From Arthrobacter gandavensis (GTDB taxonomy: Bacteria > Actinomycetota > Actinomycetes > Actinomycetales > Micrococcaceae), in the NCBI RefSeq assembly GCF_015355785.1, contig NZ_JADKYW010000002.1, forward strand, positions 62,001 to 126,000: a DNA stretch of 64,000 nt. The letters are read 5' to 3'. Position 1 is the stretch's first letter, and each line of letters begins with the position of its first letter. Both the position numbers and the translations under genes were made by a program. Positions 47,785 through 49,551 of the stretch are shown piece by piece. The notes beneath the pieces were generated by a model. The model was given only the letters and a program-made list of their open reading frames with translations, searched no databases and was not told where the DNA came from.

Positions 47785-47872
47785 GGAGACGTGCCAGAGC
47801 GGCCGAATGGGCTTCACTGCTAATGAAGTGTGGGCCTAAAGCCCACCGGGGGTTCAAATCCCCCCGTCTCCG
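47785..47872 (+). tRNA. tRNA-Ser (anticodon GCT)
   Basis: An 88-nt tRNA with a long variable arm. The acceptor GGAGACG (47785-47791) pairs with CGTCTCC (47865-47871). The anticodon loop CTGCTAA is in an ACTTC/GAAGT-type stem with anticodon GCT. The T arm carries GGTTCAAATC. The 3' CCA is encoded (47873-47875). A terminator follows. Confidence 0.96.
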
Positions 47873-47879
47873 CCAGTGG

Positions 47880-47910
47880 AACACCCCGGTCTTCGGACCG
47901 GGGTGTTTTC
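47880..47910 (+). terminator. Intrinsic terminator of tRNA-Ser(GCT)
   Basis: A perfect 12-bp hairpin, AACACCCCGGTC with GACCGGGGTGTT and a TTCG loop, is followed by TT. Confidence 0.92.
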
Positions 47911-47954
47911 TGTATAGGAACTGCTCCCCTAACTGCAGGAGGTGAACCGCACGC

Positions 47955-48038
47955 ATGGATGACGGAAACAGTCGATCTACCGCGCCGCGCGGGCCTCGCC
48001 GGCGCATGAGGGAAGCACTTCTCCCCAGCCTCTCCTGA
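47955..48038 (+). CDS. 27-residue Arg/Pro-rich leader peptide of mgtE
   Basis: An ORF of 27 codons, MDDGNSRSTAPRGPRRR followed by MREALLPSLS, with an excellent AGGAGGT ribosome-binding site (47937-47943) 11 bases before the ATG. It lies 155 bases upstream of mgtE and no other gene lies between. The N-terminus is acidic and is followed by Pro/Arg clusters. This loosely parallels the MgtL leader of the enterobacterial mgtA gene, which also has an acidic/proline start and a PRRR run, and whose translation reports on Mg2+. Two hairpins with alternative pairing follow directly. A role in Mg2+-dependent attenuation is inferred. Confidence 0.6.
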   Translation: MDDGNSRSTAPRGPRRRMREALLPSLS

Positions 48039-48052
48039 CGGCTGATCCCGGT

Positions 48053-48109
48053 CTGCGGCACGCCGCAGCACCTGCTTTCCCGTGCCGGCCGCCCGCATCA
48101 CTGCGGCAC
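48053..48109 (+). promoter_or_regulatory. Alternative RNA hairpins in the mgtE leader
   Basis: CTGCGG-CACG-CCGCAG (48053-48068) forms one hairpin, and GTGCCG (48082-48087) with CGGCAC (48104-48109) forms another. However CGGCACG (48056-48062) can instead pair perfectly with CGTGCCG (48081-48087), and the 9-mer CTGCGGCAC occurs twice (48053 and 48101). Two mutually exclusive folds are thus possible. The segment starts 15 bases after the leader-peptide stop. Confidence 0.5.
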
Positions 48110-48192
48110 CATACCGGCCCACACCTCACAGCTGCACACCCGCGGTTCTACCGCGTCCGTTCCTGTGTGCCCCGTCCGTAGGAAAGCGGATC

Positions 48193-49551
48193 ATGATCAA
48201 GTCACCTGGCCTCTCCTTCGATACCACCGCTGCCCTTCTGGCACAGGCCCTCAGCGGCGGCAACCTGTCCCGCGCAGCCCGAGCCCTCCAGCCGCTGGAC
48301 GTGGCAGAAACCCTTGAACAGCTTGAACGCCTGAGCACCATCGACCGTGCGGTGGCGTACCGTACCCGGCCCAAGGACCGGGCGCTGGAAGTGTTTGAAC
48401 GCTTTGACGCACCGGTGCAGGCAGACCTCCTGGCCGGCCTGCAGGACGCCCAGGTGGCAGAGGTCTTTTCGGCGTTGAACCCCGAAGACCGGGTGCCGCT
48501 GCTGGATGAACTGCCGGCGACCGTGGCCAGCCGGCTGGTTCAGGGACTGGATGAAAAAGACCGGGCGCTCACCACCGCTGTGCTCGGCTACCCGCGCGGG
48601 GCTGTGGGCCGCTACATGAGCCCGCGGGTGGTCACTGCCCGCCCCGGGATGACGGCCTCCGAAGCCCTGGACCGGGTCCGGCGGCAGCTGGACGAGGCCG
48701 AAAGCATCTACGTTGTTGCCGTGACGGACTCAAGCCGCCATCTGCTCGGCGTCGTGCCCCTCCGGGACCTGCTCCGTGCCGGCAGCACCGAACGGGTCGC
48801 GGACCTGATGACGTCCCCGTCCTCCGTCCCCGCCTCCCTGGACGCGGAGGAAGCAGCCCGGTACTGCGCCGACGCCAAGGTCCTGGTGCTGCCCGTCGTC
48901 GACGCCGAAGGCCGGCTGGTTGGCGTCCTGACCGTGGACGACGCGCTGCGGATCCTCGAAGCCGCGGAAACCGAGGACTCGGCGCGCTCCGGCGGTTCCG
49001 AGCCCCTGCGCCGGCCGTACCTCGCAACGCCGGTCCGGTCCATTGTGCGCGCCCGGGTCGTATGGCTGCTGGTCCTGGCACTCGGGGCAACCCTCACCGT
49101 CCAGGTCATGGATGTCTTCGAAACAACCCTGGCCGAGCAGGTGGTGCTGTCACTGTTCATTCCCCTGCTGATCGGCACGGGCGGCAACACCGGCAACCAG
49201 GCCGCGACCACCATTACACGGGCGCTGGCGCTGGGAGACGTGCGGCCCCGTGACGTCGTTCAGGTCGTTGCCCGTGAGGTGAGGGTCGGCGCGCTGCTGG
49301 GCCTGCTGCTCGGCGGGCTCGGATTCATCATCACCTCCGTGCTCTTCACGGTGCCGCTCGGGACCGTGATCGGATTGACGCTGCTGGGCGTCTGCACCAT
49401 GGCAGCCGCTGCCGGAGGGCTCATGCCGATCCTTGGCAAGTCCCTGAAAGTCGATCCGGCCGTGTTCTCAAACCCCTTCATTTCGACTTTTGTTGATGCC
49501 ACCGGGCTGGTCATCTACTTCCTGATCGCGTCTGCCGTGCTGGGCCTTTAG
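48193..49551 (+). CDS. mgtE: Magnesium transporter MgtE
   Basis: A 452-residue Mg2+ channel. Order: N domain (about 1-125, LAQALSGGNLSRAARALQPL and ALNPEDRVPLLDELP), a CBS pair (about 130-255, GRYMSPRVVTARPGMTASEAL and LLVGVLTVDDAL-like LVGVLTVDDALRIL), a plug helix, and a five-helix pore domain with LFIPLLIGTGGNTGNQAATT, the selectivity signature, and SNPFISTFVDATGLVIYF. Cytosolic Mg2+ bound to the N/CBS domains closes the channel. ATG 48193 follows TAGGAAAG. An earlier in-frame ATG at 48082 lies in the leader hairpins and is not favoured. Confidence 0.95.
   Translation: MIKSPGLSFDTTAALLAQALSGGNLSRAARALQPLDVAETLEQLERLSTIDRAVAYRTRPKDRALEVFERFDAPVQADLLAGLQDAQVAEVFSALNPEDRVPLLDELPATVASRLVQGLDEKDRALTTAVLGYPRGAVGRYMSPRVVTARPGMTASEALDRVRRQLDEAESIYVVAVTDSSRHLLGVVPLRDLLRAGSTERVADLMTSPSSVPASLDAEEAARYCADAKVLVLPVVDAEGRLVGVLTVDDALRILEAAETEDSARSGGSEPLRRPYLATPVRSIVRARVVWLLVLALGATLTVQVMDVFETTLAEQVVLSLFIPLLIGTGGNTGNQAATTITRALALGDVRPRDVVQVVAREVRVGALLGLLLGGLGFIITSVLFTVPLGTVIGLTLLGVCTMAAAAGGLMPILGKSLKVDPAVFSNPFISTFVDATGLVIYFLIASAVLGL

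Follow-up and report, generated by a model that had tools for sequence, protein, structure and literature searches.

Leader ORFs and RNA elements upstream of Mg2+ transporter genes

The subject of this analysis is a short upstream open reading frame (uORF) that precedes mgtE, a gene for a Mg2+ transporter, in a stretch of 64,000 nucleotides from Arthrobacter gandavensis (contig NZ_JADKYW010000002.1, positions 62,001 to 126,000; the whole stretch is hereafter called the window). The closest described counterpart is uORF2 of mycobacteria (Rv1805A, Rv1535A and Rv0115A; D'Halluin et al. 2026, PMC12810186; this and the other papers cited are represented here by excerpts). As in the window, uORF2 is a short open reading frame (ORF) with a strong Shine-Dalgarno sequence (SD) and a conserved N-terminus, situated in a Mg2+-related leader; it is further characterized by an M-box and by a proline at position 7. 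Expression of uORF2 has been shown by lacZ fusions, and Rho-dependent termination has been reported in the leader of Mycobacterium tuberculosis. The excerpts term the peptide specific for mycobacteria, with an unclear role, and describe Rv0115A as a copy without the M-box.

In enterobacteria, mgtA is preceded by mgtL (PMC11282234, PMC11552253), a short ORF with an acidic start that lies within the leader structure and is followed by a pyrimidine-rich tract, a layout resembling that of the window. The mechanism described for mgtL comprises drop-off at an EPDP motif at low Mg2+ and the action of Rho (PMC11282234); according to PMC11552253, Rho termination went undetected for mgtA of Escherichia coli. 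Ribosomes can be destabilised by acidic pairs early in the chain, but di-acidic residues alone are insufficient (PMC11282234). The original prediction, made from the letters of the window, had compared its ORF with mgtL, and this comparison survives as a resemblance in layout and kind of gene but not as homology, since there is no sequence homology, the EPDP motif is absent (the window reads MDDGNSR) and the transporter is MgtE, not MgtA. The corL-corA leader (PMC11552253) is alike in having a uORF with few acidic and Pro residues, alternative leader pairing and a rut-like tract; it differs in its unrelated sequence and in its UUG-started uORF, placed within stem A. Another candidate regulatory RNA located upstream of mgtE is the mgtE motif SRC-65-1 (PMC11109978), which, according to the excerpts, is reported only in Thioalkalivibrio and is classed as a riboswitch candidate, not as a uORF.

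Literature searches, confined to open-licence papers, brought up no comparable leader ORF of an actinobacterial mgtE besides the mycobacterial work. The suggestion that the device was possibly undescribed is partly wrong, because an ORF of the same type, uORF2/Rv1805A of mycobacteria, was published in 2026; its occurrence beyond mycobacteria, the forms lacking an M-box and the long-range helix presented below did not come up in those searches.

A conserved leader ORF that belongs to mgtE

The 27-codon ORF announced by the original prediction, with its ribosome-binding site and its position between tRNA-Ser and mgtE, is found as described (Table 1): it starts with ATG, encodes MDDGNSRSTAPRGPRRRMREALLPSLS, and its SD lies 10 nt upstream of the ATG (12 nt if counted from GGAGG). 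This uORF is real, conserved and belongs to mgtE. A search of 395 family genomes, the own one among them, with its 81-bp core gave matches in 51 at an E-value of 0.001 or below; in nine of these no match exceeds about 40 bits. In the other 42 the core is matched ahead of mgtE, at 48-147 bits. In the same-genus genomes G002, G003, G006 and G024 the tRNA-Ser gene is located elsewhere, and the core still precedes mgtE. A degenerate pattern applied to a genome collection (84,980 species by the description of the tool) returned 29 loci, overlapping with the 42 core-match genomes and including many identical genomes; in 28 of them mgtE follows the uORF on the same strand at a distance of 180-348 nt. 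The records of these 28 loci are named Arthrobacter, Paeniglutamicibacter, Glutamicibacter, one Micrococcaceae metagenome-assembled genome and one Sporosarcina, and point to Micrococcaceae as the family searched. The latter (L123, NZ_JADHDY010000005, named Sporosarcina beigongshangi) has an Arthrobacter-type mgtE leader and is probably a mislabelled genome. The remaining match (L125, a metagenome-assembled genome of Truepera) was rejected as unrelated, because a longer ORF begins there and the examined piece contains no mgtE. In the own genome, a pattern search gave eight places, against six for a reversed-pattern control, and among the places examined only that of the window is the element.

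Across relatives, the distance between SD and start codon varies, the length of the uORF ranges from 15 to 47 amino acids, and its end lies 105-270 nt upstream of mgtE in 45 leaders. The start codon is ATG in 42 of 42 cores retrieved by DNA similarity, and TTG or GTG in some diverged relatives. Judging from its SD, its start codon and the third-position pattern given below, the uORF is very probably translated.

The conservation of the peptide is restricted to its first eight residues, beyond which the sequence is variable; in two leaders (L036 and L047) the uORF is one base short past codon 8 and thus frameshifted. Codon-level evidence comes from 43 distinct sequences of the MDDG type, which were drawn from 53, namely the 45 leaders plus eight diverged sequences chosen for lining up (L079, L082, L092, L104, L108, L109, L112 and L113, which do not line up, were excluded). 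In this set, codons 2-4 change almost solely at third positions, Gly4 is encoded by all four Gly codons, and Ser6 is retained via AGT, AGC and TCT, a result reached in 0 of 500 column shuffles, which ignore kinship.

Codons 6-8 are rare in this organism: AGT makes up 4.4% and TCT 3.1% of the Ser codons, and CGA 3.4% of the Arg codons, as estimated from 27 long non-overlapping ORFs of the window (15,887 codons). Among the in-frame leaders (L036 and L047 excluded), AGT and CGA are present in 32 of 32 and TCT in 27 of 32, and AGT and CGA do vary in more diverged relatives. The tRNA-Ser(GCU), which decodes AGU, is a neighbour of mgtE in this clade and matches the rare Ser codon 6 (AGT, 47970-47972), possibly by coincidence.

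A wider group of actinobacterial leader ORFs

By-eye inspection of further mgtE regions covered 40 in the family, 40 of 66 places outside the family and 20 of 35 places outside the order, and the uORF was seen in 16 of 40, 8 of 40 and 6 of 20, respectively. A strict pattern consisting of GAGGT, a start codon and AGTC, which was fixed after the sequences were known, was found in 8 of 40, 5 of 40 and 3 of 20 regions, against averages of 0.34, 0.34 and 0.12 in shuffled sequences and a single antisense match per set; overall, this amounts to 16 of 100 upstream regions versus about 0.8 in shuffles and three antisense matches. A looser pattern did not outperform shuffles in the sets from the order and from the class. 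Examples of diverged uORFs are MDDGPSREPAP, MSDSHSRSS, MSSDSHSRR, MEPGSSRDH and MRSEPPSRR. The uORF of the window is best explained as a member of a broad actinobacterial group of leader ORFs of Mg2+ transporter genes, a group that probably includes the M-box-linked uORF2 of mycobacteria.

The connection with the M-box (ykoK, RF00380) is provided by loci in which both elements occur. Using cmscan, an M-box was identified upstream of the uORF and mgtE in L077, L079 and L081 from the family and in L230 from the class, although only L079 fits the strict pattern and the other three were assigned by eye. Of the regions scanned, 36 have a uORF and four of these an M-box, whereas the 70 lacking the uORF have none, and the expectation that mgtE regions lacking the uORF would carry an M-box instead was wrong. 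Among 197 genomes of the class, nine contain 18 M-boxes, 14 of them from five genomes of one genus. The strict core was found downstream of 15 of these 18, 218-289 nt from the M-box start, while the background is one match in 107,068 bases. As for the other three leaders, L235 is diverged, none was seen in L241, and in L245 the core is intact about 263-275 nt after the M-box start, with ATT replacing the start codon. The sequence aggaggtga precedes the ORF in L231-L234, L240, L242-L244 and L246-L248. The original prediction had drawn attention to an acidic start in a leader of a Mg2+ transporter gene, and is borne out in this respect. Likely relatives of the ORF are located directly downstream of M-boxes.

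The M-box-linked ORFs read MSSSDSPDRSP, MSPGDSPYPKS, MSPGHSPRLSW and MPEGNSQQPG, and one locus with MSPGDSPYPKS precedes a PPE gene. Those beginning with MSSSDSP or MSPGDSP hold Pro7, as does uORF2 (PMC12810186), and have the AGTC core in common with the window type. In L236, an M-box and a uORF (MSPGHSPRLSW) are located upstream of a gene assigned to CorA by Pfam, so that the pair is not confined to mgtE. In L239 the pair (with MPEGNSQQPGDA) lies upstream of a gene for a BPD-type permease, and no uORF was seen in the mgtE region of the same genome (L213). L077 and L078, which belong to the same genus, have M-box plus uORF and uORF alone (no M-box at E up to 0.1), respectively, a contrast that suggests a recent loss of the M-box.

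In the window itself, no M-box was detected between 46000 and 52000 at E up to 1; in the Rfam scan of this segment only the tRNA reached its gathering score, and four other families remained below theirs. On the basis of position, SD, AGTC core, gene context and the bridging loci, the uORF of the window is probably related to uORF2, even though there is no significant peptide alignment; the match to uORF2 relies on its published description (PMC12810186) and the PPE-gene loci, and not on the Rv1805A sequence itself. The strong SD typical of the uORF2 family is present in the window, which differs in having no M-box, an MDDG start and Arg7 instead of Pro7, and whose clade has a long-range helix. 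Owing to Arg7, the uORF is described here as a relative in the wider group and not as a member of the uORF2 family.

Long-range helix and downstream leader

A column-pair scan, used because RNAalifold on the 3' part of the leader gave little, revealed that codons 9-14 of the uORF are complementary to a segment 52-192 nt downstream (helix B). The scan was carried out on 34 of the 45 leaders, after excluding the four from Glutamicibacter (L073, L122, L124 and L132), L064 (in which BLAST misplaced the mgtE start) and the near-duplicates L052, L054, L057, L059, L068 and L075. In a separate MAFFT alignment of the 34, the 16 pairs of helix B are 84.4% standard, versus 30-46% for slid partners, a percentage biased upward because the structure was derived from the same sequences. 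The covariation score is 0.177, versus 0.147 in shuffles (reached in 0 of 500), and in 18 cells both sides have changed; related sequences may, however, exceed shuffles without any structure.

Individual leaders form between 10 and 16 of the pairs. In the two frameshifted leaders, 13 (L036) and 12 (L047) of the 16 pairs are present, and the duplexes beat 150 of 150 shuffles (L034, the closest to L036, forms 12), which argues that codons 9-14 are conserved mainly as RNA. The Pro/Arg clusters emphasised by the original prediction are not supported as the working part of a peptide, codons 9-14 being largely explained by an RNA helix. When eight members of the clade were examined singly, L039, L046 and L069 also beat all 150 shuffles. 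Helix B is therefore supported by covariation in the clade, and is weak in the window, which forms 12 of 16 pairs, with the core pairs 49, 50 and 52 broken. The idea that it is common to all relatives was rejected, as outside the clade only L104, L178 and L204 of 34 loci reach p<=0.007.

Between helix B and mgtE, a C-rich, G-poor tract is present in 34 of 34 leaders (C 32-54%, G 0-17%). The 60-nt stretch of the window beginning at 48093 has C-G = 0.30, a value reached by 0.1% of 60-nt background windows, or by 1.1% if asked of whole 155-nt background segments. By analogy with known leaders, this tract suggests Rho-dependent termination in the mgtE leader. It is followed by a terminal hairpin, whose outer helix is 92.9% paired, with both-side changes at two of six pairs, and whose inner helices are 71.9% and 81.8% paired, and then by the small hairpin with the mgtE SD (Table 1). 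For this 3' structure, the observed values were reached by 3 of 500 shuffles for cells paired, 18 for the covariation score, and 77, 8 and 267 for the other three measures. In partition functions, masking a ribosome over codon 7 lowered the median probability of helix B from 0.67 to 0, while a ribosome at the start codon raised it up to 0.87.

Table 1. Features of the mgtE leader and adjacent genes in the window
Feature	Position	Strand	Basis
SD of the uORF, AGGAGGTG	47937..47944	+	Sequence; GAGGTG constant across alignment A2 (41 leaders)
Leader ORF (uORF) of 27 aa, conserved in codons 1-8 (core M-[DE]-D-G-x-S-R-S)	47955..48038	+	Cross-genome comparison
uORF codons 6-8, AGT-CGA-TCT, rare; proposed slow zone	47970..47978	+	Codon use
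Helix B, 5' strand (uORF codons 9-14)	47979..47994	+	Pairing in 34 leaders
Helix B, 3' strand; one bulged base, 96 nt downstream of the 5' strand	48091..48107	+	Pair scan
C-rich, G-poor tract, possible Rho-utilisation site	48108..48133	+	C 50%, G 12%
Terminal hairpin GCACAC...GTGTGC, with inner hairpin CCGCGG...CCGCG; directly upstream of the mgtE SD	48134..48170	+	Pairing
4-bp hairpin enclosing the mgtE SD (CCGT AGGAAA GCGG)	48176..48189	+	93.4% paired, 34 leaders
mgtE, Mg2+ transporter, 452 aa	48193..49551	+	Pfam MgtE, CBS, MgtE_N
tRNA-Ser(GCU), neighbour outside the device	47785..47875	+	Leader occurs elsewhere in G002, G003, G006, G024

The start of mgtE was placed at ATG 48193 and not at GTG 48082 because the start ATGATCAA and its SD are conserved and the Pfam domains lie within 48193-49551. 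A terminator-like hairpin is found downstream of the tRNA-Ser gene, at about 47880-47909. In 25 of 45 leaders, the exact sequence TAGGAT, probably the -10 box of a promoter, is situated 30-130 nt upstream of the uORF; this box is absent from the window, where the tRNA-Ser gene and the terminator occupy the corresponding stretch.

Interpretation of the leader ORF

The interpretation favoured here, with a probability of roughly 0.55, is that the uORF is a translated leader cistron that acts as an attenuator of mgtE without an M-box in this lineage, possibly in a Rho-dependent manner, as the comparison with known leaders suggests. In its favour stand the conservation and linkage to mgtE, the co-occurrence with M-boxes, the covarying helix of the clade, the rare codons, the C-rich tract, and the translated uORF2 with its Rho-regulated leader in M. 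tuberculosis (PMC12810186). Several results weigh against it. With regard to helix B, two of its five measures do not exceed shuffles (both-side-changed pairs, 306 of 500; further pair types, 473 of 500), the duplexes of L051, L074 and L031 do not beat 150 shuffles (L031 being the window, with z = -0.3), and the helix is absent in all four Glutamicibacter leaders tested. When a ribosome was masked over the uORF, the mgtE SD (mean accessibility 0.42) and the C-rich tract (about 0.5) stayed nearly as accessible as before; the partition functions consequently give no support to an action of helix B by hiding the mgtE SD, and SD occlusion does not explain the output step. In M. tuberculosis, Rv1805A begins only downstream of the main Rho-dependent end, and the authors, in the excerpts, consider termination independent of the translation of that ORF (PMC12810186), which counts against its simple coupling to Rho. 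The distribution is likewise uneven: 24 of 40 family, 32 of 40 outside-family and 14 of 20 outside-order mgtE regions showed no uORF; a nucleotide profile gave no clear case outside the family among 396 genomes of the order (it matched 25, of which six are within the family and the other 19 score 21 bits or less); and the M-box sample is skewed towards a single genus. Finally, synonymous and non-synonymous codon types over codons 2-8 of the 32 leaders number 5 to 9 (expected synonymous fraction, 0.22), which is no signal of peptide selection.

An ORF arising by chance in the DNA flanking a tRNA gene would be nothing unusual in a region where 49 short ORFs of at least 20 amino acids overlap 4 kb, but the conservation with mgtE where the tRNA lies elsewhere refutes it, and this origin is practically negligible. 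More serious is the proposal that the open frame is incidental to a stretch conserved as a structured RNA with cis-regulatory function or as a binding site for a protein. It would account for the invariance of AGTCGA, wobble positions included, in 32 leaders, and for the conservation of codons 9-14 as a helix that tolerates frameshifts after codon 8 in L036 and L047. Against it speak an SD kept invariant at variable distances from the start, codons 2-4 that vary almost only at third positions, Ser6 being kept via AGT and TCT (in a set picked as MDDG-type, kinship ignored), and the translation of uORF2 in mycobacteria (PMC12810186). Little weight can be given here to the start codons of diverged relatives, because the scans admitted only ATG, GTG and TTG. 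Altogether, a purely RNA-based element is considered unlikely.

Two further alternatives attribute the function to the peptide. A sensor like MgtL, in which the nascent acidic chain would destabilise or stall the ribosome at low Mg2+ (intrinsic ribosome destabilisation), is in keeping with the Mg2+-related role of mgtE, with acidic residues at codons 2 and 3 throughout the 43 sequences of the MDDG type (picked as such), with EPP or EPG in the relatives L192, L204, L220, L221 and L227, and with the reported effect of early acidic pairs (PMC11282234). This remains doubtful: the EPDP motif is missing, Pro and Arg are not retained as peptide, the insufficiency of di-acidic residues alone comes from the same source (PMC11282234), and acidic residues are missing from the beginning of the peptide in the M-box relatives L236-L238 (MSPGHSP, MSSGGSP, MSSGSSP). 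The other alternative is a small protein functional in trans, as the authors propose for Rv1805A, and not a leader acting in cis. The conservation of the N-terminus across actinobacteria and the Rv0115A copy without M-box (PMC12810186) speak for it; it is nonetheless improbable for a peptide that varies past its first eight residues, is frameshifted in two relatives, ranges from 15 to 47 amino acids in length and, in 45 leaders, ends 105-270 nt ahead of mgtE.

For the leader cistron as an attenuator, the following course of events can be proposed. The ribosome would initiate at the strong SD, read two acidic codons and then encounter the rare codons 6-8, and its progress would decide whether codons 9-14 pair with the segment adjoining the C-rich tract ahead of mgtE. 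Helix B, most likely through Rho, would in turn set the read-through into mgtE. By analogy with mgtA and corA, efficient translation of the uORF at high Mg2+ would turn mgtE off. We infer translation in this organism, pausing or drop-off, the participation of Rho, the Mg2+ signal and the polarity. The acidic start and the rare codons are better candidates for the sensing part than the Arg and Pro residues. More tentatively, the leader ORF may be a translation-based Mg2+ sensor throughout the class, which would have operated first in series with the M-box and later alone in Arthrobacter and its relatives, with the acidic start and the invariant rare codons serving as a pause zone that gates the long-range helix.

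These observations connect an unexplained small ORF of mycobacteria with a much larger range of leader ORFs and argue for a regulatory role linked to Mg2+ transport. The cases in which a leader ORF is present and no riboswitch was found make Mg2+ sensing by the ORF alone testable, and such a mechanism would extend Mg2+-responsive leader ORFs from enterobacteria to the mgtE genes of actinobacteria.
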